A stretch of DNA of 11,234 bases from Chloroflexota bacterium (lineage in GTDB: Bacteria > Chloroflexota > Limnocylindria > Limnocylindrales > CSP1-4): positions 1 through 11,234 of the forward strand of contig JACCXQ010000252.1 in the NCBI GenBank assembly GCA_013696945.1, given 5' to 3'. The notes beneath the pieces are model-generated. The model did no database searches. It was given only the letters and a program-made list of their open reading frames with translations, and had not been told where the DNA came from. The position numbers and the translations under genes are program-made. Shown here in pieces: positions 1-11,234 of the stretch. Numbering within the stretch: position 1 is the first letter of the stretch; every line of letters starts with the position of its first letter.

Positions 1-2
1 GG

Positions 3-122
3 ATGCGACCTGCTCCCGGCTGGTCGGCAGATGCCTGGCGGGCGCTGCTTCGCCGCGTGATCCGCGAGGGGCCGCATGACCCGGGCGAACCCCACGGCCA
101 CCACCACTCCGGAGACGAGTGA
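3..122 (+). CDS. Possible C-terminal end of an unidentified protein with a His-rich tail (partial)
   Basis: One plus-strand frame is open from the left edge to a TGA at 120-122. It would encode about 39 residues ending in HGHHHSGDE after a short amphipathic stretch (WRALLRRVIREG). About three quarters of its codons end in G or C, which is below the clear genes here but compatible with coding. A His-rich tail is common in metal-handling proteins such as transporters, metallochaperones and nickel or zinc proteins, but nothing else identifies the family. It would converge on the ribonuclease gene that ends at 196. From 123 to 195 I see nothing: no hairpin followed by a T-run. It may equally be non-coding sequence, so this is a weak call. 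Confidence 0.3.
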   Translation: MRPAPGWSADAWRALLRRVIREGPHDPGEPHGHHHSGDE

Positions 123-195
123 CCGCCACTCGCCGCAGCCCGCCTCCCTCACCCGACACGTCGCCGCCACCCGACCCCCCTGCGTCGACCCAGCC

Positions 196-1707
196 CTAGT
201 CGAGCTCCACGACCTCCTGCCAGTCCGGCCGATACGGTTCGAGCCCGAGATCGCGCACCTTCGGTTCCAACGCCAGCTGGGCCTCGGGGTCGCCGTGGAC
301 CAGGAAGACGCGGCGCGGTTTGCGCGCCGCCCCGGCGAAGTGCCGAAGCCAGTCGAGAAGCTCGCTTTCATCCGCATGCGCGCTGAATCCGCTGATCGAG
401 CGGACCTGGCAACGGACCTGGCGCGTGGCGCCATCGAGGCGGATCTCCGTGGCACCGGCCTGAAGATGCGCCCCGAGCGTGCCCTCACCCTGGTAGCCCA
501 CGAACAGCAACAGCGCGGCCGGGTCATCGATGAGGTCGCGCAGGTGGTGCACGATCCGTCCGCCGGTGAGCATCCCGCTCGCCGACACGATCATCATCGG
601 CCGAGGCGCCGTTCGGATGGCCTTTGACTGCGACGCATCATTGGTGAACGTGGCGCCGGGGTAGTCGAGCGGGGTCTCGCCGCGCTGGAGCAGCTCGTAT
701 GTCTCGTCGTCGTAGTAGCCCTGGTAGCGGCGATAGACCTCGCTTGCGGCGCTCGCCATCGGCGAGTCGAGGTAGAGCGGCACATGAGGGATCCGTCCGG
801 CCGAGAGCAGTCGATCGAGCTCCCAGACGATCTCCTGCGTGCGCCCGATGGCGAACGCGGGCACGAGAAGGACGCCGCTGTGCTCCGCCACGGCGTTGAC
901 CGCCTCGGCCAGGAGGCGGATGGCCTCTTCGGTCGGATCGTGCTCCCGTCCGCCGTAGGTCGACTCGACGAGGACGTAGTCGGCGCCGTCCATGATGGCT
1001 GTGGGATCGCGCAGGATGGGCGTGTTCGGCCGGCCCACGTCGCCGGAGAAGCAGATCCGTCGGCTGGTGCCATCGGCATCCTCGGCATCGACGACGATGA
1101 TGGCCGAGCCCAGGATGTGCCCTGCGTCGCGGAAGGTCGCCGTGATGCCGGGCGCGACGGTCACCGGCGTGTCGTAGTCGGTGGGCCGGAAGAAACGGAC
1201 GGCGGCCTCGGCGTCGACCACCGTGTACAGCGGCTCCTCGATCTCCGTCTCGAGGACCGGCGGCTGTGCGCGCAGGTCGGCCTCGGCGTGGCGAGGGATC
1301 GGCGGCTCGCTCGGCGGCAGCGCGGTCTGTCCTGCGCTCTCCGCCGCCCGTCGCGCCTGCCGCTCGGCGCGCTGCTGGCGCGACCGCGTCTGCTCGGCCT
1401 GGACCTTCCCGCTGTCGAGGAGGACGAGCCGCGCCAGCTCCGCGGTCGCCTTGGTCATGTGGACGTCGCCGCTGAACCCCTCGCGGACCACGAGCGGCAG
1501 CAGTCCGCAATGGTCCAGGTGCGCATGTGTCAGGAGGATCGCGTCGATCGACGAGGGGTCGTAGACGAGCGGTATCCGGTTGCGCGCCGCCTCGTTCGGG
1601 GACCCCTGGAACAGGCCACAGTCGACGATCACGCGTGCGCGGTCGGTGGTGAGCAGGAACTGCGAGCCGGTTACCGTGGTCGCGCCGCCCAGGAACTGGA
1701 GTCTCAC
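196..1707 (-). CDS. Beta-CASP metallo-beta-lactamase ribonuclease (CPSF73/TTHA0252-like)
   Basis: The protein has 503 residues and is probably a cytoplasmic zinc-dependent RNA endo/exonuclease. The metallo-beta-lactamase signature HAHLDH lies at residues 61-66. A further metal ligand sits in AGHILGSA (His197) and the bridging Asp in SGDVG (Asp223). The beta-CASP motifs follow: Glu248 in VLVEST, the TGGRIVHH histidines near 387-388, and SGFSAHADE with His444. The RMMBL-type C-terminus contains LVHGDPEAQ (His471). The order and residues match CPSF73-like bacterial RNases, which are usually about 430-470 residues. The excess here is a charged, Arg/Glu/Pro-rich stretch at about residues 101-160. 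The start is GTG at 1707, preceded by AGGTGG at a spacing of about 5; no in-frame ATG is better placed. The gene is divergent from fabI across only 50 bp, so the two promoters must be compact or overlapping. Family is certain; substrate is unknown. Confidence 0.93.
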
Positions 1708-1743
1708 GCGTCCACCTGCATCGGGTGCATCCTATCGGGACAC

Positions 1744-1751
1744 GGAGGTGG
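1744..1751 (+). promoter_or_regulatory. Ribosome binding site that fixes the fabI start
   Basis: GGAGGTGG ends directly against the ATG at 1752, but lies 6 nt before the ATG at 1758. Only the latter spacing is workable. The resulting N-terminus ([13 protein letters not shown]) is also where FabI proteins normally begin, so the ATGs at 1725 and 1752 are rejected as starts. Confidence 0.7.
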
Positions 1752-1757
1752 ATGCTG

Positions 1758-2537
1758 ATGGGCTTGCTCGACGGCCGCAAGGCGCTGATCTTCGGCGTGG
1801 CCAATGACCACTCGATCGCCTGGGGCATCGCCCGGGCGCTGCACGCCGAAGGGGCGATGCTCGGCTTCAGCTCGGTCGAGAGTCTGGTCGACCGGCGGGT
1901 GCGGCCGCTGGCGCAAAGCATCGGCGCCGACTTCGTCGAGCCGTGCGACGTGCAGGACGACGCCCAGATCGAGCGTGTCTTCGAGCGCTGGCGCGAGCAG
2001 CATGGCACGCTCGACATCCTTGTCCACGCGCTGGCATACGCTAGGCGGGAGGATCTCGAAGGCGCCTTCGTCGACACGTCGCGCGAGGGGTTCGCGGTCG
2101 CCCTCGACGTGAGCGCCTACTCCCTGGTCGCCCTGACCCGGCATAGCCTCCCGCTCCTATCCTCCAAGGCGAGCATCCTCACGCTGACCTACTACGGCGC
2201 CGAGAAGGTCGTCGCGAACTACAACGTGATGGGCGTTGCCAAGGCCGCCCTGGAAGCGTCAGTGCGCTACCTGGCGGCCGACCTGGGTCCGCGCGGCGTC
2301 CGCGTCAACGCCATCAGCGCGGGTCCGATCCGGACGCTCGCCGCGTCGGGTGTCAGCGGCTTCAAGACGATGTACGGGAAGTTCCGCGATGTCGCGCCTC
2401 TTCGCCGCAACATCGCGATCGAGGACGTCGGGTCGGCGGCCGTCTTCCTGGTGAGTGACCTCTCCGCTGCGATCACCGGCGAGGTCATGTACGTCGACGC
2501 CGGCTTCAACGTCCTGGGCGTGCCGACCGACGAGTAG
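1758..2537 (+). CDS. fabI: Enoyl-[acyl-carrier-protein] reductase, NADH-type (FabI)
   Basis: The enzyme reduces the trans-2-enoyl-ACP double bond with NAD(P)H, the last step of each FAS II elongation cycle, in the cytoplasm. From the ATG at 1758 the protein has 259 residues, the usual FabI length. It is a short-chain dehydrogenase-type Rossmann protein. The FabI-specific dinucleotide motif is visible at 13-23 ([11 protein letters not shown]), and the catalytic Tyr-x6-Lys is Tyr155/Lys162 inside NYNVMGVAK. The second conserved tyrosine lies at 145-146, and the substrate-loop signature [12 protein letters not shown] spans about 187-198. All catalytic residues are intact. No other fab gene is nearby, so it appears to be a solitary transcription unit. 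It is divergent from the ribonuclease gene and ends 12 bp from the convergent exonuclease gene. The triclosan/isoniazid target type is a family property and was not tested here. Confidence 0.96.
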
Positions 2538-2541
2538 CGAC

Positions 2542-2558
2542 GGGCCGGCTCACGGCCC
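2542..2558. terminator. GC hairpin between convergent genes (possible bidirectional terminator)
   Basis: GGGCCG and CGGCCC form a perfect 6-bp stem around the 5-nt loop GCTCA, between the fabI stop and the exonuclease stop and overlapping the latter. There is no T-run on either side, so it is not a textbook intrinsic terminator. Its position between converging genes suggests a transcript-end role. Confidence 0.35.
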
Positions 2559-3098
2559 CCGCCACCCCAGAAGCAGCTGCGCCAGCTCCGCCTGCGCCTG
2601 GGCGTCGTCGAGCGCGTTGTGCGTCACTCGGCGCTCCGTGGGGTAGCGCTCGAGCACCCACCGCTTGCCGGTTTCCTCCCATCGCTGTACCCCGTCGCGG
2701 CCCATGTAGACCGACTTGAGGTCGAGGGCGGAGATACCGAACGGGTTCCGACCGAGGTAGCGATGGAGATAGTCGGCCACGAACATCCAGTCGAACGGGG
2801 CATTGAAGCCGACGAAGATCGGCCTGCCTCCGTCGGCCACCTGGTCCAGCCACGCCGCCAGCGATGCCATCGCATCGGCCGGCGCCACGGCCCTCGTCGC
2901 GAGGACGGCGCGCGTGAGGCCGTGGATCCGCTCCGTCGCAGGGTCCCACTCGCGGTCCGCCAGCGGCTGTATCTCACGGTAGAAGGCGACGTCCGGATCA
3001 GCCACGAGGCAGGCGCCGATGGCGATCATGCTGCCCGTGCCCGGCGTCGGTCCCGAGGCCTCGATATCGACGCTGATGAACTTCTCGTTGGTCGGCAC
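2550..3098 (-). CDS. DEDDh 3'-5' exonuclease (DnaQ/RNase T superfamily)
   Basis: This 182-residue single-domain nuclease should remove nucleotides from 3' ends using two metal ions. All five DEDDh residues are visible: Asp11 and Glu13 in SVDIEASG, Asp103 in FNAPFDWMF, and His160 with Asp165 in THNALDDAQA. Its size is that of a bare catalytic domain, with no polymerase, GIY-YIG or helicase fusion. Whether the target is DNA (proofreading or repair) or RNA (maturation) cannot be told from sequence. The start is GTG at 3098; the only Shine-Dalgarno-like element, TGAGG, lies about 13 nt upstream, so initiation may be weak. The nearby ATG at 3103 is out of frame. The secreted-peptide gene lies 63 bp upstream on the same strand, so both may share a transcript. 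Confidence 0.9.
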   Translation of the reverse strand: MPTNEKFISVDIEASGPTPGTGSMIAIGACLVADPDVAFYREIQPLADREWDPATERIHGLTRAVLATRAVAPADAMASLAAWLDQVADGGRPIFVGFNAPFDWMFVADYLHRYLGRNPFGISALDLKSVYMGRDGVQRWEETGKRWVLERYPTERRVTHNALDDAQAQAELAQLLLGWRGP

Positions 3099-3122
3099 GC
3101 CATCAATCGTGCCTCAGACGTG

Positions 3123-3138
3123 GGCCGGCCGTCCGGCC
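3123..3138 (-). other. GC hairpin between the peptide gene and the exonuclease gene
   Basis: GGCCGG and CCGGCC flank a 4-nt loop, giving a perfect 6-bp stem in the 63-bp gap. No T-run follows on the minus strand. It may attenuate or stabilise a joint transcript, or mean nothing in GC-rich DNA. Confidence 0.25.
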
Positions 3139-3161
3139 GAGCGGTCAGATGACGCGGGCGG

Positions 3162-3326
3162 TCACCTGGGCCACGGCATCGTCGAGAGATCATCCACGGT
3201 CGCTCCGGCCCGCGAGTCATCGAGGAGACCCTCAGCGAAGACCGGCGTCCCGGCCTGGAAGGCCAGCGACACGACGACGAGTGCGGCGAGGAGCAGGGCT
3301 CGCGCGCGACCCCGAAGGTTGCGCAT
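3162..3326 (-). CDS. Small secreted peptide precursor (54 residues), candidate signalling peptide
   Basis: No family is recognised. The ATG at 3326 is preceded by AAGGAG with a 6-nt spacer, one of the best Shine-Dalgarno sites in the window. The precursor begins with a basic n-region (MRNLRGRAR), then a 14-residue hydrophobic core (ALLLAALVVVSLAF), then a c-region ending PVFA before Glu-Gly. This is a typical Sec signal peptide with a likely signal peptidase I site after residue 31. The exported part is about 23 residues, acidic at first (EGLLDDSRAG) and ending LSTMPWPR. There is no lipobox Cys, Gly-Gly leader or Cys pair. Codons mostly end in G or C, like the real genes. The longer frame from 3392 overlaps this gene's own -10 and is rejected. 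It is divergent from an HTH/TPR regulator, an arrangement known from pheromone-receptor pairs. A signalling role is inference; it could be an ordinary small exported protein. Confidence 0.6.
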   Translation of the reverse strand: MRNLRGRARALLLAALVVVSLAFQAGTPVFAEGLLDDSRAGATVDDLSTMPWPR

Positions 3327-3332
3327 TTCGAA

Positions 3333-3338
3333 CTCCTT
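3333..3338 (-). promoter_or_regulatory. Strong ribosome binding site of the peptide gene
   Basis: Read on the minus strand, AAGGAG is followed by TTCGAA and then the ATG at 3326. This spacing selects the 54-codon frame over the longer one. Confidence 0.65.
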
Positions 3339-3390
3339 GATTGCGCGGCTTTGTGACTGGGGTAACGGACGGGGTGCCAGCGCAGGGCTC

Positions 3391-3420
3391 ATCGTACGCT
3401 ACGCACCACCGCACAGTCAA
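3391..3420 (-). promoter_or_regulatory. Sigma70-like promoter of the peptide gene
   Basis: On the minus strand, TTGACT (3420-3415) is separated by 18 bp from TACGAT (3396-3391), matching the -35 in five of six and the -10 in four of six positions. Transcription would start near 3384, giving a leader of about 58 nt. The -35 is itself one of the TTGAC boxes of the array, so a box-binding regulator could compete with or contact RNA polymerase here. Confidence 0.5.
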
Positions 3421-3509
3421 GCATTCGTTGACGTGGTGTCGTTGACGTAGGATGCGGATGGACTTGACTCCTGTTGACCGCTGGCACCACGGTGGCACTA
3501 TCGGGTCAA
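3416..3509. repeat. Array of six TTGAC/GTCAA boxes in the divergent promoter region
   Basis: TTGAC occurs on the plus strand at 3428-3432, 3442-3446, 3464-3468 and 3474-3478, and its complement GTCAA at 3416-3420 and 3505-3509. Two copies extend to the direct repeat CGTTGACGT (3426-3434 and 3440-3448, a 14-bp period). The first reverse copy pairs with the first forward copy as an inverted repeat with a 7-bp centre. Several copies could be sigma70 -35 elements, but six within 95 bp of GC-rich DNA is far above chance. The array lies between the peptide and regulator genes, so operator sites for the HTH regulator are the natural reading. This is not demonstrated. Confidence 0.5.
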
Positions 3510-3524
3510 AGATGGCATGACCAG

Positions 3525-3533
3525 GTGTACACT
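3525..3533 (+). promoter_or_regulatory. Palindrome and possible leaderless -10 element of the regulator gene
   Basis: GTGTACAC (3525-3532) is a perfect 8-bp palindrome. TACACT (3528-3533) inside it fits the TANNNT -10 form and ends 8 nt before the ATG at 3542. No Shine-Dalgarno sequence lies at normal spacing, so a leaderless transcript starting at or near the ATG is plausible. An alternative promoter is TTGACC (3474-3479), a 16-bp spacer and the weak -10 CACTAT (3496-3501). Confidence 0.35.
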
Positions 3534-3541
3534 CCGCGGTC

Positions 3542-4915
3542 ATGAAGACCCTGACTCGACGACGCATCGTGGTGGACGACAGCGCCCTCGCGGCCCGGAT
3601 CGGGATGCGTCTGCGAGAGGCGCGGACCCGGGCCGGCCTGACGCAGCAGAAGCTGGCGGAGGGCCGCTACACGAAGGCCTACGTGAGCGCGCTCGAGAAG
3701 GGGCACGCCAAGCCCTCGATGGCGGCGCTGACCTTCTTCTCCGACCGGCTCGGCTTGCCGCCCAGCCACTTCCTTGGGGACCGCGAGAGTCGGTGGCACC
3801 GGATCGACGCGGATCTCCTGCTCGCATCCGGACGCTGGCAGGAGGCAGCCGATGCCTACGAGTCCGTCCTCGAGACGCAGACCGATCGGGGCCTCCGGGC
3901 AGAGTCGCTCCGGGGGCTGGCCGAGGCCCTCTGCCGCCTGGACCGCGGGTCCGATGCCATCGGGCCGGCTACGGAAGCCGTCGAGGCGTTCGCCCGACTG
4001 GGGCGCGACCGTGACGCCGCCCTGGCGACCTACTGGCTCGCGAACGCGCAGCACCTGGCCGAGAACACGACCGAGGCGCGGGCCCTCCTGAGCGGTCTGC
4101 TCTCACAGCTCCGGGCCCGCACCGACGCGGATCCGGATCTCCGTCTGCGGTCACTGATGGCGCTCTCGACGCTGGATGCTTCCGAGGAGCAGCATCGCTC
4201 GGCGCTCGGCTACCTCGAGGAGGCCCGCGCCATGGCTTCGGACCTCGATGACTGGCGTCGTGCGCTCTTTCTCTCGCTGCTGGCCTACAGCTATACGGAG
4301 ACCGGCGACATGGAAGCCGCGATACGCACGGGCGTCGAGAGCCTGGGTCTCTTCCGGGCCGCGGAGTCGCAGCGGGAGGTCGCGAAGCTCGAGAACAACC
4401 TTGCCCTCGCGTACCTCCGGGTCGGCAACGCAGGGCGAGCGTGGGAGTTCGCCGGCCAGGCCCGCTCGCGATACTCAGCCACCGGCGATCGGCATGCGCT
4501 GGCCCACGTGGCCGAGACCGAGGCACAGATCGCGCTGTCCGATCGTGACGTCAGTCGCGCGCTGAGCCTGGCGGACGAAGCGATCGGGCACGCGGAGGCC
4601 AGCGACAACCACCGCGCCCGCGTGAGCGCGATGCTCACCCGCGCCCGCGCCCATGTCGTCGCGGGAGACCTCGACATCGCCATCGACGCGTATGACCGAA
4701 CGGCGGCCGTCGTTCGGGAGCACGGACCTCGACTGCGGCTTCGTGAGGCCCTCGGCGAGTGGGCTGACGTCCTCGCCTCGCTCGGGCGGCACCAGGAGGC
4801 GTACGCGCTCACCCGCGAGGCGCTCCAGGCATCGATGCCCGACCAGACGGCTCGACCCGCGGCGGCTGGGCAGCGCGTCCTCTCGGACCTTCCCGTCTCC
4901 CTGACCCGCTCCTAG
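3542..4915 (+). CDS. XRE-family HTH transcriptional regulator with C-terminal TPR repeats
   Basis: This is a predicted cytoplasmic DNA-binding regulator of 457 residues. An N-terminal Cro/C1-type helix-turn-helix lies at about 18-78, with the recognition region LTQQKLAEGRYTKAYVSALE followed by the typical GHAKPS. Residues 85-430 consist of repeated helix pairs of TPR type, seen as recurring A-x-x-x-A/L patterns and turns such as LASGRWQEAADAYE, YTETGDMEAAI, YLRVGNAGRAWE and HVVAGDLDIAIDAYD; I estimate eight or nine repeats. There is no transmembrane segment or enzymatic domain. The HTH+TPR design is that of RRNPP peptide receptors (PlcR, Rgg, NprR), but it is also widespread in GC-rich bacteria without a known ligand. 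The gene is divergent from a small secreted-peptide gene and is followed after 9 bp or 192 bp by the GGDEF/EAL gene, depending on that gene's start. The start at 3542 lacks a Shine-Dalgarno sequence. Confidence 0.88.
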   Translation: MKTLTRRRIVVDDSALAARIGMRLREARTRAGLTQQKLAEGRYTKAYVSALEKGHAKPSMAALTFFSDRLGLPPSHFLGDRESRWHRIDADLLLASGRWQEAADAYESVLETQTDRGLRAESLRGLAEALCRLDRGSDAIGPATEAVEAFARLGRDRDAALATYWLANAQHLAENTTEARALLSGLLSQLRARTDADPDLRLRSLMALSTLDASEEQHRSALGYLEEARAMASDLDDWRRALFLSLLAYSYTETGDMEAAIRTGVESLGLFRAAESQREVAKLENNLALAYLRVGNAGRAWEFAGQARSRYSATGDRHALAHVAETEAQIALSDRDVSRALSLADEAIGHAEASDNHRARVSAMLTRARAHVVAGDLDIAIDAYDRTAAVVREHGPRLRLREALGEWADVLASLGRHQEAYALTREALQASMPDQTARPAAAGQRVLSDLPVSLTRS

Positions 4916-4947
4916 GTCCGATCCATGCCCCGTTCTCGAACTTTGTC

Positions 4948-4976
4948 TTCACACGGTCCGGGAAGTCAAGTATTAT
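4948..4976 (+). promoter_or_regulatory. Sigma70-like promoter upstream of the GGDEF/EAL gene
   Basis: TTCACA (4948-4953), a 17-bp spacer and TATTAT (4971-4976) match the consensus in five of six positions at each element, with ideal spacing. It sits in a local AT-rich dip. Transcription would start near 4983, downstream of the ATG at 4925, which argues for the GTG at 5108 as the true start. AGTCAAG (4964-4970) abuts the -10 and repeats a 7-mer from the peptide-gene promoter at 3415-3421. Confidence 0.5.
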
Positions 4977-5009
4977 TCGCCTCCGGCGGCAAGCTCGCGA
5001 CCCGCCGAT

Positions 5010-5053
5010 CGGTCGGGACCCGACACTGGGGAACCGGAGCCCGACCGGGGAAC
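5010..5053 (+). promoter_or_regulatory. Structured segment, possible 5' leader element of the GGDEF/EAL gene
   Basis: CGGTCGGG (5010-5017) is exactly complementary to CCCGACCG (5040-5047), giving an 8-bp stem. The same left arm can instead fold locally, with GTCG (5012-5015) pairing to CGAC (5021-5024), so the two folds exclude each other. CCCGACACTGGGGAAC (5019-5034) is imperfectly repeated as CCCGACCGGGGAAC (5040-5053). I do not recognise a known riboswitch class; the GEMM cyclic-di-GMP core is absent. Confidence 0.3.
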
Positions 5054-5107
5054 GTTCTCGATGGGGTCCGGATCGACCGGAGCGGGAATTGGTCGACTCG
5101 ATGGTCT

Positions 5108-6439
5108 GTGCCGGATGGGATCGACGCGCAGACGGGCCTCCCGGATGCTCGTGCGTTCCGGACGGCGGTGCAGGCCGCAGTCGATGGGGCCGGGCGCGGC
5201 GGGCCGAGGCCCGCCGTCATGGTCGTAGATCTCGACAGGTTAGGACCACTCCGACTAAGCCTTGGCCCTGCGGCCGGCGACGAGCTACTGGGAGCCGTCG
5301 CCGGCCGCCTTGCGGCCACGGTCCGCCGGCCCGATCTTCTTGCGCGGCTTCGGCCCGGTGCCTTCGCGCTCCTGCTGCGTGAGACGCCGTCACCACGCGA
5401 GGCGATCCGCCACGCGGACGAGGTTGTCGACGTCCTGCGACGCCCGCTCGTCATCGGCGGCGCGGTCGTCGCGCCCCGTGCCAGTGCGGGACTCGCGTTC
5501 GCTGGGTCGGCCACCGATGCGGTCGGGCTCATCGGCGAGGCGGAACTTGCCGTGGCCCGTGCCAAGGTGGACGGCGGCGACCGGTGGAGCGCGTTCGAGC
5601 CCGCACTTCATGCCGTCGCAGCGGCGCGCGATGGCCTTGCCCGCGAGTTGGATCAGGCGATCGACGCCGGAGCGCTGACCCTCGAGTTCCAGCCGGAGCG
5701 TCGGATCGCGGGTGCACTCGGGCAGGCGGGAACCATCCGCTCGGTCGAGGCGCTCGTACGATGGCGCCACCCGGCGCGCGGCCTCGTCCGCCCGGCCGAC
5801 TTCCTGCCCGTCGCCGAGCAGACCGGGTCCATCGATCGGATCGGCGCGTGGGTCCTCCGGGAGGCAGCCGCCCACGCACGGTCGTGGCAGCTGACCGACC
5901 CGGGCTACGCCAGGCTCAGCGTGGGGGTCAATCTCTCGGCGCGCGAGATCGGCCGTCCCGGGTTGGTCGCCGAGGTCGTCAGCGTGCTCGCCGCAACGGG
6001 GCTCGCACCGGCCACCCTCACGCTCGAGGTCACCATCGCCGCGATCACGCACGACCCGCGGCACGCCGTTGCGACGCTGGCGGCGCTCCGGGCGACCGGT
6101 GTCCGCATCGCGCTCGACGACTTCGCCGGTGATGCGAACACGTTGGGGACCGAGCGGCGAGCGACCGTCGACGTCGTGAAGATCGATCCGAACCTCGTGG
6201 CAGCGGTCGCGTCCGATCGCGGGTCGGAGCGCGCCATCCGGGCCATCGTCCAGGTCGCCCGCGACCGCGGGATCGAGACGGTCGCAGAGGGGGTGGAGAC
6301 GCGAGAGCAGCTTGCGGCTCTTCGCGAGCTCGGTTGCGATCTCGCCCAGGGCTATCTCTTCGGCAAGCCGCTCGGAGCGTCGGGCATCAGCGCAGTGCTG
6401 CGCGCGGAGCGTCGCCGCGGGGACCGCGTGTCGGCCTGA
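5108..6439 (+). CDS. Degenerate GGDEF plus EAL domain protein (cyclic-di-GMP phosphodiesterase or sensor)
   Basis: Numbered from GTG 5108 there are 443 residues. A GGDEF fold spans about 5-165 (DAQTGLPDARAF, VVDLDRL, GDELLGAV). Its active site reads RPGAF (82-86) instead of GGDEF, so diguanylate cyclase activity is not expected. The EAL domain spans about 175-430: Glu214 in VEALVRWRHP, Asn275 in VNLS, Glu307 in TLEVTI, Asp337-Asp338, Lys358 in VKID, Glu394 in AEGVET and Gln414 in AQGYLFG. All metal and catalytic residues are thus kept. Two features are atypical: Ile310 replaces the usual second Glu of the LEITE motif, and loop 6 reads DDFAGDANTLG rather than DDFGTGYSSL. No membrane segment or sensor domain is seen. 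The start is uncertain. ATG 4925 would add 61 residues and sits 9 bp after the regulator, but its first 17 codons mostly end in A or T and cover a promoter; GTG 5108 lacks a Shine-Dalgarno sequence. Confidence 0.85.
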   Translation: MPDGIDAQTGLPDARAFRTAVQAAVDGAGRGGPRPAVMVVDLDRLGPLRLSLGPAAGDELLGAVAGRLAATVRRPDLLARLRPGAFALLLRETPSPREAIRHADEVVDVLRRPLVIGGAVVAPRASAGLAFAGSATDAVGLIGEAELAVARAKVDGGDRWSAFEPALHAVAAARDGLARELDQAIDAGALTLEFQPERRIAGALGQAGTIRSVEALVRWRHPARGLVRPADFLPVAEQTGSIDRIGAWVLREAAAHARSWQLTDPGYARLSVGVNLSAREIGRPGLVAEVVSVLAATGLAPATLTLEVTIAAITHDPRHAVATLAALRATGVRIALDDFAGDANTLGTERRATVDVVKIDPNLVAAVASDRGSERAIRAIVQVARDRGIETVAEGVETREQLAALRELGCDLAQGYLFGKPLGASGISAVLRAERRRGDRVSA

Positions 6440-6459
6440 GGGCGTGTGCCCCCGACACG
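6427..6459 (+). terminator. Hairpin spanning the stop codon of the GGDEF/EAL gene
   Basis: CGTGTCGG (6427-6434) and CCGACACG (6452-6459) form a perfect 8-bp stem with a 17-nt loop containing the TGA at 6437. No T-run follows, so an intrinsic terminator is only a possibility. Confidence 0.3.
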
Positions 6460-6499
6460 GACCGGGGTCGGCCCCTGAACGCGCGGCTCGCAGCGGCTA

Positions 6500-6523
6500 A
6501 CGTGTCGCGCGTGGAAGACACGT
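6500..6523. promoter_or_regulatory. Inverted repeat ACGTGTC-N10-GACACGT upstream of the oxidoreductase gene
   Basis: A perfect 7-bp inverted repeat (6500-6506 and 6517-6523), spanning 24 bp in the 118-bp gap before the oxidoreductase gene, could be a dimeric repressor operator. TAACGT (6498-6503) overlaps its left arm and fits a TANNNT -10, so binding here would block that promoter. The regulator is not identifiable. Confidence 0.35.
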
Positions 6524-6561
6524 GCGGGCAGTCCTCTGATCAGCCCGCCATGCCGCGATGA
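6511..6561 (+). CDS. Possible 16-residue upstream peptide overlapping the oxidoreductase start
   Basis: A GTG at 6511 lies 7 nt after the putative -10 TAACGT (6498-6503), the spacing of leaderless genes. It opens a 16-codon frame (VEDTCGQSSDQPAMPR) whose TGA overlaps the oxidoreductase ATG as ATGA. This would allow translational coupling, which could explain why the oxidoreductase lacks a Shine-Dalgarno sequence. The frame is short enough to be chance. Confidence 0.18.
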   Translation: MEDTCGQSSDQPAMPR

Positions 6562-7469
6562 GCCGCCGGCCGCTCAAGATAGGCGTGCAGCTCCCGGAGG
6601 TCGAGCGCGAGACCAGCTGGCCGGAGCTCCGCCTCATGGCCACGACGGCCGAGGAGGTCGGGCTCGACTCGCTGTGGGTAGGCGATCATCTGCTCTACCG
6701 GGAGCCGGGCACCCCGGCACGCGGTCCGTGGGAGGCATGGTCGATGCTGGCCGCGCTGGCCGCCGTGACGACGCGTGTCGCCATCGGGCCACTCGTCGCC
6801 GCCACGAGCTTCCATAACCCGGCGATGCTCGCCAAGAAGGCCGCAACGGTCGATGAGATCACCGGCGGCCGGCTGATCCTGGGCCTGGGTGCCGGCTGGA
6901 ACGAGGTGGAGTACCGAGCGTTCGGGTACCCGTTCGACCAGCGCGTCTCGCGGTTCGAGGAGGCGTTCACGATAATCCGCACCCTCCTCCGTGACGGCGC
7001 CATCGACTTTGACGGCCGCTTCTACAAGGTCCGCGATTGCGAGCTGCGGCCGCGTGGTCCGCGGGCCGAAGGGCCGCCGCTCATGGTCGGTTCGATCGGC
7101 CAGAAGATGCTGGGCACCACGCTGCCACACGTCGACTCATGGAACGCCTGGTACAGCTGGTACGGCAACTCGGCCGACGGCTACCCACAGCTCCGGGACA
7201 CCATCGATGATGCATGTCAGGCCGTCGGACGTGATCCCTCGACGGTGGAGCGGACAGTGGCGGTGCTCATCCGGCTGCCCGGGGGCACCGGCCGCGAGCA
7301 GGGGGACCGTGTCTCGGCACCGCCCGTGCCCGTCGAAGAGGCGGCTCGGGTGCTGCTCCAGCTGGCGTCCCACGGCGTCGCCCATGTCCAGCTCGTACTG
7401 GATCCGATCACGGTCGAGTCGATCGAGGCCCTGGCGCCGATGCTCAGCGAGCTGTCGACGAACGCCTGA
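6558..7469 (+). CDS. Luciferase-like (LLM class) oxidoreductase, probably F420-dependent
   Basis: This predicted cytoplasmic flavin- or F420-dependent TIM-barrel oxidoreductase has 303 residues, within the usual 280-350. The N-terminal strand KIGVQLPE (7-14) and EEVGLDSLWVGDHL (32-45) are characteristic. They are followed by TRVAIGPLV (72-80), SFHNPAMLAKKAATVDE (84-100) and GGRLILGLGAGWNEVEY (103-119), the block most diagnostic of the F420-dependent LLM group. After it come REEF-like SRFEEAF (131-137) and the substrate-side strand PPLMVGSIG (173-181). The substrate cannot be predicted; relatives act on sugars, alcohols, methylene-H4MPT or xenobiotics. If it uses F420, the host must make this cofactor, but no F420 gene is visible here. 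The start at ATG 6558 has no Shine-Dalgarno sequence. The 3' end overlaps the convergent DinB-like gene by 26 bp. Confidence 0.88.
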   Translation: MSRRPLKIGVQLPEVERETSWPELRLMATTAEEVGLDSLWVGDHLLYREPGTPARGPWEAWSMLAALAAVTTRVAIGPLVAATSFHNPAMLAKKAATVDEITGGRLILGLGAGWNEVEYRAFGYPFDQRVSRFEEAFTIIRTLLRDGAIDFDGRFYKVRDCELRPRGPRAEGPPLMVGSIGQKMLGTTLPHVDSWNAWYSWYGNSADGYPQLRDTIDDACQAVGRDPSTVERTVAVLIRLPGGTGREQGDRVSAPPVPVEEAARVLLQLASHGVAHVQLVLDPITVESIEALAPMLSELSTNA

Positions 7470-7918
7470 GCTCGACTACCCACTCGCGGAGCCGGGGCAG
7501 GTGCTCGTCGTAGTGCTCGGCGCCGGCCTTCCGGAGCACCCTCCGCGTCGGTCGTCCTGCGGGGCAACGAGGCCCACGCGGACAGCATGCGTGAGCGGGA
7601 TGCGGTGGCCTGGATCCGGACGATCTCGAGCGGGACGTCGGCCATGTCGGCCAGGAAGCGCGCGTTCATGGCATCGATGTCGATCTCGTCGGCCCGGAAA
7701 GTACCGGACCGGATCTGCTCGAGCACCGCCCCGGCCTCGGCCAGCCACGCCCCGATGTACGCCAGCATGTCCTTGGCCGACCAGCTCTCCTCGAAGTATC
7801 CCGCGGTCATCGCCTGGCTCGGAGTGAGCGAGGCCATCAGGTCGGACAGCTCGCCCCAGCGCCGCCGCTCGAGCGCGAGCTCAGCAGGATCGATCGCCGA
7901 TCCGGCGTCGTCTGTCAT
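7444..7918 (-). CDS. DinB-like four-helix protein interrupted by an apparent single-base frameshift
   Basis: The ATG at 7918 follows GGAGG (7928-7924) with a 5-nt spacer. The frame encodes a DinB/maleylpyruvate-isomerase-N-like protein: GELSDLMASLTPSQ, SWSAKDMLAYIGAWLAEAG and ASRSRMLSAWASLP. It then leaves the family pattern and reads Arg/Pro-rich nonsense to a stop at 7217. The expected C-terminus (AGAEHYDEHLPRLREWV) is present in the next frame. Removing one C from CCC at 7539-7541 joins both parts into a 157-residue protein ending at 7444, the normal length for the family. His134 and His138 would be two of the three usual metal ligands; the first is replaced by Tyr54 (LAYIGAW, usually LAHI). 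Family members are often metal-dependent, thiol-linked enzymes, but the function here is unknown. The extra base is either a real inactivating mutation or a sequencing error. Confidence 0.7.
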
Positions 7919-8062
7919 CCCAGCCTCCGTCCCGCTAAGCGCGATCCCGCGGCGCAAAGAGACGCTGACAGGGTACTCGGCCTGCATCCGTCCGGGCGTC
8001 GCATCGCAGCGACATGTCAATAAGGGGTAGACGGGGCTATGTCGGCCTTGCATACTGACCCT

Positions 8063-8252
8063 CGACGCCCCAGCGTCGTCGCCGCTCCACAACCGAACAA
8101 GCCGTACCAGCCGTGGCCGGACACCAGTCCGGCAGCACCACACCCTGCCCCAGCGGGGGTCGGTGTCGGGTCCGCGCGACCGGGTCGTTCGTCGCGCGTG
8201 CCCTCCTGCGCTCGTCGGCCTCAGCTGGCCGCCGCAGAGCCCGTGCGCACGG
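8063..8252 (+). promoter_or_regulatory. Hairpin-rich leader region upstream of the secreted-protein gene
   Basis: The gene-free stretch 7919-8270 contains a run of perfect inverted repeats. They are CGACGC/GCGTCG (8063-8078, loop 4), GCCGGAC/GTCCGGC (8116-8133, loop 4), CCCC/GGGG (8148-8158, loop 3), CGCGCGAC/GTCGCGCG (8173-8198, loop 10), CGGCC/GGCCG (8216-8231, loop 6) and the 12-bp palindrome CCGTGCGCACGG (8241-8252). The last ends 2 nt before the ribosome binding site. A smaller palindrome, GACATGTC, lies at 8011-8018. No protein frame here looks real, no known riboswitch was recognised, and no convincing promoter was found. GC-rich DNA folds easily, so structure conservation is untested. 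Confidence 0.35.
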
Positions 8253-8254
8253 TC

Positions 8255-8262
8255 AGGGGGAG
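8255..8262 (+). promoter_or_regulatory. Ribosome binding site that decides the secreted-protein start
   Basis: AGGGGGAG lies 8 nt before the GTG at 8271. This start places a basic n-region and hydrophobic core at the N-terminus, as a signal peptide needs, whereas starting at 8163 would add 36 residues of unlikely sequence. Confidence 0.55.
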
Positions 8263-8270
8263 AACCAGCC

Positions 8271-9179
8271 GTGTTCGTTCGAAGCCGTGGCGCTCAGCGC
8301 GCGCCGTTCGTCCACCGTGGCCGGACCGTGGGCCGTGGCCCGTCGCTTCTGGTCATCATCGTGCTCGCCGCCGTGTCCGGCATGACGCTGGTCCTCGGTG
8401 GGGCGCCGTCCCCGGCACGCGCTGCAGGCGGTCAGCCCAAGGCAGTCGTCATCGTCGGGCCCGGCTCAGGATCCACGTCGGAGTTCCTCAACGAGGGTGA
8501 GCTCATCGCCGACCAGGCAGCGGTCGCCGGCATGGCCGTCAGCCGCATCTTCCATCCGAACGCGACGTGGAAGCGTGTCAAGGAAGCGACCCTGGGCGCG
8601 AACCTCGTCGTCTACTTCGGCCACGGCAACGGCTGGCCGAGCCCCTATCCCCCGTTCCAGGAGGACACCAAGGACGGCTTCGGACTGAACGGGTACGAAG
8701 GCGCCTCGCAGTACTCCACGACCTACTACGGCGGCAACAAGATCCGTGCGAAGCTGCGCCTTGCGGACGATGCCGTCGTGATCATCTACCGCGCCTGTTA
8801 CTCGGCCGGGAACGGCGAGGATGGTTCGCCCATCCCATCCCAGAGTGTGGCTATCAAGCGGGTCGACAACTTCGCCGCGGCGTTCCTCCATCCTGATGTC
8901 GGAGCCGGCGTCGTGATGGCCTACCGTACCAAGCAGTGGATCGACTTTCCGGCGGGCCTGATGCTCCCCGGTCGGACCATGGACGACGTCTTCCGGACGC
9001 CAAGCTCGAAGCCCTCCTGGTCGATGAGCGGCTGGATCGGCACCAACGACATCTTTGCCGATTCCGTGCGAACGTCCGGCGCGCGCCTGCACCTCGACAA
9101 GCACCCCACCCTTGGCTACTCGAGGGCGGTCTCCGGATCGCTGGGCCTGACTACGGACGCTTGGCGGCTGGGCGAGTGA
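8271..9179 (+). CDS. Secreted protein with a caspase/gingipain-like (clan CD) His-Cys pattern
   Basis: From GTG 8271 there are 302 residues. Residues 1-25 are basic, 26-44 are hydrophobic (LLVIIVLAAVSGMTLVL) and SPARA ends near 51, giving a long Sec signal peptide or a membrane anchor. The rest follows the order of a caspase-like fold. It starts with the strand KAVVIVGPG (57-65) and a helix around EFLNEGELIADQAAVAG. Next is NATWKRVKEATLGANLVVYFGHGNG with His118, then a long polar loop. DDAVVIIYRACYSAG follows with Cys176, then FAAAFLHPDVGAGVVMAYRT. A hydrophobic strand ending in His-Gly and a second ending in Ala-Cys is the dyad signature of clan CD peptidases and CHAT domains. The C-terminal 80 residues (SWSMSGWIGTND, HLDKHPTLGYSR) are unrecognised. 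I know no named family that fits; a protease function is inference. The gene stands alone, converging on the GH15 gene with a 37-bp gap. Confidence 0.7.
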   Translation: MFVRSRGAQRAPFVHRGRTVGRGPSLLVIIVLAAVSGMTLVLGGAPSPARAAGGQPKAVVIVGPGSGSTSEFLNEGELIADQAAVAGMAVSRIFHPNATWKRVKEATLGANLVVYFGHGNGWPSPYPPFQEDTKDGFGLNGYEGASQYSTTYYGGNKIRAKLRLADDAVVIIYRACYSAGNGEDGSPIPSQSVAIKRVDNFAAAFLHPDVGAGVVMAYRTKQWIDFPAGLMLPGRTMDDVFRTPSSKPSWSMSGWIGTNDIFADSVRTSGARLHLDKHPTLGYSRAVSGSLGLTTDAWRLGE

Positions 9180-9216
9180 CGGCGGCCCGCACGCCGCACG
9201 GGGTTGCCCTGCCGAA

Positions 9217-11234
9217 CTAGCGCGACGGTGAGCGGCGTTTCTGCGGGCGGCGGGGGGCGCTGCGGCCATGGCCGCCGGTACGCGCCGGCCCGTGGGCGTC
9301 GCTCCGACGCTCCTCGGGCGGTGCGTGCACGGGCGAACGCGGCGACAGGGGCGCGGGCGAGCCGGAGACCTGCTCCGCCTGGATGACGTGCATCACCGCG
9401 TTGATGAGTGCCAGGTGCGTGAACGCCTGCGGGAAGTTGCCAAGGTGGCGTCCCGTCCCGGGGTCGATCTGCTCACCGAAGAGTCCGAGCGCGCTGGCGT
9501 AGGAGAGCATCTTCTCGCAGAGGCGCCTTGCCCGACGGATCTCGCCGATCTCGACGAGCGCCGACACGAGCCAGAACGAGCAGATGGCGAACGTCCCCTC
9601 CTCGCCGGTCAGCCCATCGTCGGTCTGCTCGACGCGATACCGAAGGACCATCCCGTCGACCGAGAGCTCGTCGGCGATCGCCAGCACCGTGGCGCGGATG
9701 CGAGGGTCATCGGGCGGCAGGAAGCGGACGAGCGGCATCAGCAGGAGCGAGGCATCGAGCGCATCGGTCCCGTAGTGCTGCGTGAAGACGCCGCGTCCAT
9801 CCATGCCGTTGGCAAGGATGTCGGCGCGGATCTCTTCCGCCGATGCCTCCCACTGCGCGGCCTGTTCGGCATCCTCCCTGATCCGAGCGAGGCGAGCCCC
9901 GCGGTCGAGCGCCACCCAGCACATCAGCTTCGATGAGGTGAAGTGCTGCGGCTCGCCACGCACCTCCCAGATGCCACGGTCCGGCTGGCGCCAATGCTCC
10001 AGCGCAGCTTCGACCTGGCGGACGAGGATGGGCCACACACGCTCGTCGAGGTGGTCGCGTGATCTCGTATGGAGGTAGACCGAATCCAGCACGGCTCCCC
10101 AGACGTCGTGCTGCCGCTGGTCGAACGCGGCATTCCCGACACGGACCGGCCGGGCGCCCTCGTAGCCGTCGAGGTGGTCGAGGGTCCGCTCCTGGGGCAC
10201 CGCCTCGCCATCGATGGCGTACATGACCCGCAGGGACTCGTCGCGCTCGGCGACATCGGCGATGAAGTACAGGTAGTCGTTCGCCTCCCAGTCGAAGCCC
10301 AGCGTGTAGAGGCCCCAGAGGGCGAACGTCGAGTCCCGGATCCAGGAGAAGCGGTAGTCCCAGTTCCGTTCGCCGCCGGGCGTCTCCGGCAGCGATGTCG
10401 TGGCGGCCGCGACGACAGCGCCGCTCGGCGCGTAGGTCAGGCCCTTCAACGTCAGCGCGGAACGCTGGAGATGGGTCCGCCACGGGTGATCCGGGAACTG
10501 GCCGCGGGCCAGCCAGTGCTGCCAGTGATGCGCTGTCCAGACGAGGCGCTTGTAGGCGTCCTCGTAGGTTCGCGGGGGCTGCGGCCTCCCCCATGACAGC
10601 GCGCAGAAGCGCGTCTCGCCTTCCTTTATGAGCGACCGAGCGATCGCGCGCGGTCCCTCGAAGCCCAGGTTCAGGTCGCTTGTCAGAGTCAGCTCGAGCT
10701 CCGAGCCCGGAGCCCGGCAGGCGCCCTGGTGATAGCCCGAGTCGGAGTACTCCCAGCGACCCAGCGTGAGACCGTACTCGAAGACCGGCTCACAGTCGAG
10801 GGCTAGCTGCATCTCACCGTTCACGCAGCGGACCGTCCGAACGAGCATGTGCGACGCGTCGTAGTCGGTCGGCGCACGGCGCTGCGAATGCGATCGCTCG
10901 GTCTCGTGGTCCCACGGCCCGATCAGCAGGACGTCGCGGATGATGACCCAGCCGGTCGGCGTCCCCCAGCTCGTCTCGAGGACCATCGTCCCGGGCAGGT
11001 ACCGACGTGCCGCGGGCACGGTGATGTCAGCCGGTCCGAAGCGGAATGCGCCCGCGTCCCGATCGAGGAGCGCCCCGAAGACGCTCGGCGAATCCATGCG
11101 TGGCAGACATAGCCACTCGATGTTGCCGCTCGGCGCGACGAGGGCCGTGGTCTCGCAGTCGGACAGGAAGCCGTAATCGCCGATCGGTGGGAAAGGTGAG
11201 CGCCCGACGTAGAGATCGTTCGTGGGCCAGCCGT
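9217..11234 (-). CDS. Glycoside hydrolase family 15 (glucoamylase/trehalase-like), 5' end outside the window
   Basis: The frame stays open to the right edge, and the conserved GH15 start IGDYGFLSDCETTALVAP lies upstream of the ATG at 11097, so that ATG is internal and the gene is partial. About 670 residues are visible. Numbered from 11097, an N-terminal beta-sandwich (about 1-200) is followed by an (alpha/alpha)6 barrel. The barrel shows ERNWDYRFSWIRDS (243-256), GYEGARPVRVGNAA (311-324), GIWEVRGEPQHFTSSK with catalytic acid Glu378 (375-390), GEEGTFAICSFW with the catalytic base Glu499/Glu500, and HLGNFPQAFTHLAL (551-564). These hydrolyse alpha-glucosidic bonds by inversion. Bacterial members of this architecture include glucoamylases and mycobacterial-type trehalases, and sequence alone does not decide. 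No signal peptide can be judged because the start is missing. After residue 577 comes a roughly 50-residue Pro/Arg/Ser-rich tail outside the family fold. Confidence 0.93.
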   Translation of the reverse strand, partial: GWPTNDLYVGRSPFPPIGDYGFLSDCETTALVAPSGNIEWLCLPRMDSPSVFGALLDRDAGAFRFGPADITVPAARRYLPGTMVLETSWGTPTGWVIIRDVLLIGPWDHETERSHSQRRAPTDYDASHMLVRTVRCVNGEMQLALDCEPVFEYGLTLGRWEYSDSGYHQGACRAPGSELELTLTSDLNLGFEGPRAIARSLIKEGETRFCALSWGRPQPPRTYEDAYKRLVWTAHHWQHWLARGQFPDHPWRTHLQRSALTLKGLTYAPSGAVVAAATTSLPETPGGERNWDYRFSWIRDSTFALWGLYTLGFDWEANDYLYFIADVAERDESLRVMYAIDGEAVPQERTLDHLDGYEGARPVRVGNAAFDQRQHDVWGAVLDSVYLHTRSRDHLDERVWPILVRQVEAALEHWRQPDRGIWEVRGEPQHFTSSKLMCWVALDRGARLARIREDAEQAAQWEASAEEIRADILANGMDGRGVFTQHYGTDALDASLLLMPLVRFLPPDDPRIRATVLAIADELSVDGMVLRYRVEQTDDGLTGEEGTFAICSFWLVSALVEIGEIRRARRLCEKMLSYASALGLFGEQIDPGTGRHLGNFPQAFTHLALINAVMHVIQAEQVSGSPAPLSPRSPVHAPPEERRSDAHGPARTGGHGRSAPRRPQKRRSPSR

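Follow-up and report, generated by a model that had tools for sequence, protein, structure and literature searches.

A small exported peptide and its divergent regulator

The contig JACCXQ010000252.1 of a Chloroflexota bacterium (assembly GCA_013696945.1) was analysed over its positions 1 to 11,234; this whole stretch of 11,234 nucleotides, here called the window, is one contig of a genome (G000) that is 65% complete. It contains a short gene for a putative exported peptide precursor, and 215 nt away a divergently transcribed gene for a regulator with an XRE-type helix-turn-helix (HTH) domain and an array of tetratricopeptide repeats (TPRs). Comparison of the sequences with those of relatives gives good support for a translated, conserved and exported short peptide paired with an XRE-TPR regulator, and the two are probably a peptide pheromone precursor and its cytoplasmic receptor. 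The features of the pair are:

3162..3326, minus strand: exported precursor gene, 54 aa, stop codon included (open frame; same-genus homologues end MPWPK and APWPR)
3333..3338, minus strand: ribosome binding site AAGGAG, 6 nt ahead of the precursor ATG (3326-3324)
3234..3326, minus strand: precursor signal peptide, residues 1-31, predicted from hydrophobicity and charge to be cut after PVFA, before EGLL (A-x-A abuts the tail in most relatives)
3192..3233, minus strand: spacer, residues 32-45 (EGLLDDSRAGATVD), absent in most relatives
3165..3191, minus strand: predicted pheromone segment DLSTMPWPR, the C-terminal 9-mer (like the same-genus tails in length, in the initial D and in the PWP-basic ending)
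3542..4915, plus strand: XRE-TPR regulator, 457 aa, predicted receptor (Pfam, structure model)
3599..3766, plus strand: HTH domain, residues 20-75 (Pfam)
3782..4831, plus strand: superhelix of nine TPRs, residues 81-430, predicted peptide groove (model)

A preliminary description of this DNA had proposed a 54-residue exported peptide with a ribosome binding site, encoded opposite an XRE regulator with eight or nine TPRs, and both parts hold. The list of open reading frames (ORFs) begins the precursor frame further upstream (76 aa), and the 54-aa start is the one with the ribosome site. Within the leader the top 11-residue stretch has a mean hydropathy of 3.13 and is preceded by a net charge of +4, and cleavage after PVFA, at an A-x-A motif, is what the sequence suggests. 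The 23-mer derived from the precursor is EGLLDDSRAGATVDDLSTMPWPR. LSTMPWPR had been suggested as a possible active segment; the 9-mer DLSTMPWPR appears likelier when compared with the other tails of the genus, which are DQVGMPWPK (G002) and, in two copies, DLAGAPWPK and DLAGAPWPR (G001).

The regulator matches the Pfam models HTH_3 (E 2.3e-7) and TPR_12 (E 1.9e-14). Its domain order, with the XRE HTH ahead of the TPRs, is general in the family, HTH_3 being found in 46 and TPR_12 in all of 47 members (that of the window included). An AlphaFold2 model (mean predicted local distance difference test score, pLDDT, 90.9) displays nine helix pairs behind the HTH domain, and the conserved residues R87, D91, R119, R132, Y164, W165, R203, R240 and N285 sit on the first helices of TPR repeats.

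Precursors beside related regulators

Of 101 genomes searched with the regulator, 61 gave a match (E<=0.001), and 50 places reached E<=1e-50. A scan of named contigs gave 69 regulator loci; the title is Steroidobacteraceae for one of them and Chloroflexi or Chloroflexota for the others. Together these 119 loci were reduced to 80 distinct regulators. A precursor adjoins 58 of these, divergently in 56 cases and downstream in two (L072, L079); the last two were found by a profile search with a hidden Markov model built from the precursors themselves, and a weak 75-aa candidate (L062) was excluded by eye from the 56. The other 22 regulators comprise six with less than 400 nt of upstream sequence, one with 488 nt and 15 with full upstream sequence. 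The preliminary description had proposed a search beside orthologues for a small signal-peptide frame, with an alignment of the C-termini. Within the genus of the window such a frame is indeed present in all three testable orthologues (G000, G001, G002), and all end PWP(R/K). In a fourth genome of the genus (G004, locus L035, one of the six short ones) the contig ends before the precursor position, and a site like the promoter box described below is present.

Fixed criteria (34-65 aa, a hydrophobic stretch and positive charge; the tail was not used) identified a divergent exported small ORF at 54 of the 72 regulators with 800 nt upstream (75%), as against 0-11% in control regions and shuffles. 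Among the controls, the same strand gave 3/72, the downstream regions 5/73 and 8/73, the regions further upstream 1/61 and 5/61, the interior of the gene 0/80 and 3/80, and five shuffles 4-8/72; the precursors of L072 and L079 lie downstream. A tail of the form [FWYLIV]P[RKHQ]? was found in 49 of the 72, and in the controls only once per downstream set. The ratio of nonsynonymous to synonymous differences (pN/pS) in the precursor family is about 0.35, with 0.34 for leaders and 0.37 for tails (29 close-relative pairs of equal length and at least 60% identity, the pairs not being independent). This ratio, and a frame at the same position with a conserved C-terminus in the relatives, indicate at the sequence level that the precursor frame is more than a chance reading frame.

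When it comes to their length, 51 of the 56 divergent precursors have 38-41 aa and 53 have 35-41 aa; the three of 54-61 aa all belong to the genus of the window. The typical precursor is a signal peptide, mostly ending in A-x-A, followed by a tail of about 8-9 residues. Since A-x-A mostly lies directly before the tail, a single signal-peptidase cut would free peptides such as DGGTIPFPR, GSTGGPWPK or VTGGGDFPR. Counted from the C-terminus, residue -1 is R/H/K in 48 of the 56, -2 is P in 46, -3 is F/Y/W in 39 and -10 is A in 42. Some close relatives with a mostly common leader differ in the tail (DGGSTIIPR, DGGPTIFPR, DGGSVIYPH, DGGSTIFPH).

In a tree of 78 regulators, 57 rows of which have a precursor, the label changes nine times, compared to 18.8 times when shuffled; precursor presence is thus clustered, with several losses or gains. 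The locus on the contig titled Steroidobacteraceae (L120) falls inside the family tree, and its bin or title is probably wrong. Some protein matches are named Candidatus Limnocylindria or Limnocylindrales. None of the genomes of the sister family f2 (G061-G079, about 1 Mb each) is among the 61 with a regulator match, as if the regulator had been lost on genome reduction. Judging from additional HTH matches, one of which was translated, 18 genomes in the window's family hold another XRE-type HTH stretch between the precursor and the XRE-TPR gene, immediately ahead of the latter (e.g. L048:1155-1520), and this could possibly be a partner regulator or a decoy.

Searching from the precursor side led back to the same loci. 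A profile of 40 precursors gave 33 matches at E<=1e-8 in the 101 genomes, each adjoining a regulator: 32 lie beside catalogued regulators, and the 33rd (G007) adjoins the start of an HTH that runs off the end of its contig. As many as 26 of the 33 are themselves rows of the profile, and the informative part is that strong matches do not occur elsewhere. In a set of 5.8 billion proteins, 152 match the profile at E<=0.01; among the 120 of these that were listed, 112 are new and 108 of the new ones end [FWYLIVM]P[RKHQ]?. In a set of 350 genomes from the phylum, matches at E<=1e-4 occur in 27, of which 19 are in the window's family and family f4 and eight elsewhere. Four of these eight (f22) have tiny frames near XRE-TPR genes at about 29% identity; the other four have longer frames and no regulator match in the locus, which means that the leader part of the profile also picks up ordinary signal peptides. 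Two extra precursors, in G099 (L202:2498-2617, ending VTGGGDFPRS) and G087 (L203:2493-2666, ending VSNGGDFPR), had no regulator within the 5 kb that was read. Their leaders are unlike that of the paired copy, and their profile matches are weaker (6.6e-7 and 2.0e-4).

The regulator profile matches 59 of 301 phylum genomes at E<=1e-20. Among the fetched regulators of other families, different tiny exported partners are common, partly on the same strand just upstream; these were recorded by position and signal, and not by descent from the window's precursor. In 500-nt windows, partners were found for f3 in 7/18 cases on the same strand and 4/18 divergent, for f22 in 13/22 and 1/22, for f19 in 7/14 and 6/14, and for f5 in 1/2, with none in f38 (0/3) and f13 (0/2); other regions in this survey gave 0 or 1. 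Further surveys, with overlapping loci, gave 22/24 for f19 (all matching places in 18 genomes) and 25/29 for f22 (the 30 best, one per genome), and other regions again gave 0-1. The query of the f22 survey was precursor-bearing, and paralogues without a partner are therefore under-sampled in it. Among the f22 regulator relatives in the matches listed, four are named (two Dormibacteria, one Stellaceae and one Sulfotelmatobacter), and all are metagenome-assembled genomes.

The tails of these families differ from each other. Family f3 has C-DPTDTGGLC and FPEDPWPDL, and f22 has DGIGPCC, DNGPGCC and ADGWPPHI. In f19 the tail SCAEVWPNPL is found, and other precursors contain two or three WPN units (GEAWPNAT, AEMWPNLP, DDIWPNNI). 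The f19 repeat precursors are at L332, L333, L334, L335, L336, L337 and L357, and several of the genomes bearing them (e.g. G276, G411, G413, G415) also carry the single-copy AEVWPNP type. The tails of the same-strand f3 partners at L083, L085, L087, L089, L091, L092 and L094 start with Cys, and six of the seven also end with Cys (CDPTDTGGLC, CPPDGGGGLC), which is suggestive of a disulphide or modified signal.

Promoter elements and neighbouring genes

The remaining features of the locus lie in the intergenic region and behind the regulator:

3391..3396, minus strand: precursor -10 element TACGAT
3415..3420, minus strand: precursor -35 element TTGACT
3421..3432, minus strand: 12-bp box GTCAACGAATGC abutting the -35 element, probable regulator site (family consensus GTTTAGYAATAC)
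3439-3448 and 3425-3434: direct repeat ACGTCAACGA, overlapping the 12-bp box
3504..3522: dyad GGTCA-N9-TGACC just upstream of the regulator -10, presumed regulatory
3528..3533, plus strand: likely regulator -10 TACACT, 8 nt from the start codon
4925..6439, plus strand: GGDEF-EAL gene, candidate output, its first ATG 9 nt past the regulator stop codon

A sigma-70-like promoter, TTGACT-18-TACGAT, serves the precursor and is the sole such site in 3000-3700 (one found, 0.1 expected). In a lenient scan a -35/-10 pair could be assigned to all 56 divergent precursors, the -10 being weak in f4 and a few others. The consensus box abuts the -35 element in most of the window's family. A box matrix, built from the precursor-locus boxes themselves, scores at least 14 at 42 of the 56 precursor loci, and among the precursor-less loci at L144 alone. 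The pattern GTTTANNAATASTTGAC, allowing one mismatch, occurs 17 times in the 101 genomes, by coordinates always at the precursor locus, and its reversed control does not occur. As this pattern was derived from the same loci, the informative part is that sites are lacking elsewhere; the variant of the window is outside the pattern. A conserved promoter box at the precursor is well supported by sequence comparison, and autoregulation of the precursor by the receptor may follow from it.

Since the likely -10 of the regulator is only 8 nt from its start codon, the mRNA is likely to be leaderless. TAGACT or TACACT is found at the same place in several relatives. At the position matching the window's dyad, f4 relatives have TGGCAAG-N5-CTTGACC. 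The exact form TGGCAAG-N5-CTTGAC has three matches in 10 genomes, all at the locus; with one mismatch allowed it matched 24 times in the same number of genomes and its reversed control 25 times, and it was therefore rejected as a regulon marker.

An EAL stretch behind the regulator is also found in G001 and G004, and not within 779 nt in G002. Cyclic di-GMP is therefore a candidate output in the window's genus only. A neighbouring gene as universal target was considered and dropped, no cluster occurring in more than 20 of the 80 loci (the clusters are not annotated in full).

Interpretation and comparison with known systems

We put the probability that the window's pair is a peptide pheromone precursor and its cytoplasmic receptor, with the mechanism that follows, at roughly 0.78. 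Sec would export the precursor, and signal peptidase I would cleave it. In most relatives this one cleavage would be enough to release the tail (about 8-9 residues); in the window's lineage it would leave a 14-residue spacer, and a further cut would be needed to release DLSTMPWPR. The tail, probably the active part of the precursor, would be re-imported by an oligopeptide permease (Opp) and bind in the groove on the concave side of the receptor's nine TPRs. The receptor would then act at the 12-bp box abutting the precursor -35 element, making signal production autoregulated, and in the window's species the turnover of cyclic di-GMP via the GGDEF-EAL gene may be the output. Both cuts, the re-import, the groove binding, the direction of regulation and the output are steps that we infer. 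The preliminary description had seen no Opp importer or protease; this is true of the locus, and the importer is not missing from the genome: Opp-type binding proteins (PF00496) are found in 61/61 genomes, with nine matches in that of the window.

Several results weigh against a pheromone and receptor pair. Of the 80 regulators, 15 whose upstream sequence is complete lack an intact precursor. Orthologues without a precursor, or with a disrupted frame, had been named beforehand as refuting the proposal, and this outcome has occurred in part; at one of the 15 (L144) box and leader are retained, and the tail is out of frame with them. One genome of the same genus (G003, 92% complete) has no regulator match. 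A Pfam scan of the window revealed no protease or permease at the locus, and a regulon defined by the box has no further site beyond the precursor locus in 101 genomes. The TPR fold is generic, LGN scoring as high as NprR, and no RNPP-specific Pfam model was found in the 47 members among 25 of 30 families listed. A Mantel test of tail against TPR distances gave r 0.41 and a partial value of 0.17 given HTH distance (p 0.013), the latter hardly above the 0.16 obtained for tail against HTH given TPR, so that a specific co-evolution of tail and TPR is not supported.

The peptide may instead be an antimicrobial or another effector which the XRE-TPR protein merely regulates, answering to some other ligand or partner. 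XRE regulators often adjoin genes under their control, and the paired cysteines at the end of some distant partners (...GPCC, C...GGLC) would fit a modified or disulphide peptide. We find this improbable given that the tails are Gly/Pro-rich, have 7-9 residues with one basic end and are far below the typical length of a bacteriocin, that a short motif occurs in tandem copies, and that any one neighbour family is found at 20 of the 80 loci at most (the neighbour clusters being annotated in part).

Less probable still is that the cell senses its own nascent or unexported precursor to gauge secretion or the state of its envelope, with no message passing from cell to cell. In favour of this are the single box at the precursor promoter, which suggests a closed feedback loop, the lack of an importer at the locus and the signal-peptide-like leaders throughout the catalogue, the latter being a selection criterion. 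It is difficult to reconcile with a tail past the cleavage site whose type is conserved and whose sequence differs among close relatives, with the nearly identical tail on two different leaders in one genome, or with the tail repeats. GC-rich genomes also yield many spurious frames (94 ORFs of at least 40 aa in 11 kb), among which one with signal-like composition might be mistaken for a gene; the 75% against 0-11% in controls and shuffles, the purifying selection on the precursor and its own promoter and box make such an artefact very hard to believe.

Signalling of the RRNPP type is described as a Firmicutes trait, and the large RRNPP_detector survey scanned Firmicutes and viruses only (PMC10075063). 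Another paper gives the share of Firmicutes receptors with a detected propeptide as 40-100%, depending on the subfamily, and knows of tandem copies as well as of 'eavesdroppers' that lack a propeptide (PMC9765709); by that account, the 58 of 80 found here is in the usual range. The earlier remark that no described example was known from this lineage agrees with our search, which found no peptide signalling of this type for the phylum in the literature, preprints and most subscription journals being outside it. Chloroflexi are unmentioned in the portions available of three RRNPP papers (PMC10075063, PMC9765709, PMC12700828), and the mentions seen in excerpts of two others are unrelated, being an enzyme reference (PMC13118402) and sludge membership (PMC10945367).

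The family appears to work like RRNPP systems, and only this likeness of working is claimed. As in Rgg-SHP and ComRS of Bacillota, a receptor with an XRE HTH and TPR-like repeats (here a predicted one) goes with a short precursor whose active peptide (here putative) is C-terminal; the divergent layout is also a feature of Rgg-SHP pairs. Unlike these, the window's family belongs to another phylum, has Sec-type leaders with A-x-A mostly abutting the tail, and gave no Rgg-specific Pfam match among the families listed. The SHPs are smaller and secreted by PptAB, as far as the available text tells (PMC9765709). The overall fold of the modelled regulator resembles that of NprR or Rap, and its profile matches PlcR (2e-9, HTH part), RapH (3.5e-9) and NprR (5e-5), with kinesin light chain and LGN scoring alike. 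When compared with PlcR-PapR and NprR-NprX of Bacillota, similarity outside the HTH is thus at the level of generic TPRs, and the tails here, from a different phylum, are Gly-rich and end F/Y/W-P-R/H/K. Rap, of Rap-Phr, lacks a DNA-binding HTH and acts as a phosphatase or anti-activator. In contrast to Rap-Phr and AimR-AimP, no copy of the window's regulator was confirmed on viral contigs, where a search for phage-borne copies gave 105 pattern matches and no confirmed relative; in PHROGs it matches transcriptional regulators of a generic kind, plus two families whose function is unknown. The top partial NCBIfam match, to the TPR part, is that of the NsdA family of Streptomyces TPR regulators, far below the cut-off (33 bits vs 75), and we know of no peptide partner for that family.

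We lean slightly towards a wider reading, in which Chloroflexota would be a second, phylum-wide home of peptide signalling through cytoplasmic receptors, perhaps independent of the Bacillota systems and with eavesdropper paralogues and orphan precursors. As proposed dialects, the window's class would have [DG]GGxxxFP(R/H/K) and PWP(R/K), a sister family the types C-x(7-8)-C and FPEDPWP, a Dormibacteria-like family the types DxGPCC and WPPxx, and a further family the type AEVWPNP, along with paralogous precursors that hold two or three copies. If true, the phylum, many of whose members are uncultured, would gain a peptide language, and dozens of predicted signals of 7-9 residues would be open to synthesis. 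It could then be asked whether the receptors spread between phyla or arose twice, and the single-site promoter box should make a reporter easy to build.

Elsewhere in the window, an ORF without a Pfam match at E<=0.1 (8163-9179) encodes 338 aa with a hydrophobic N-terminal stretch.
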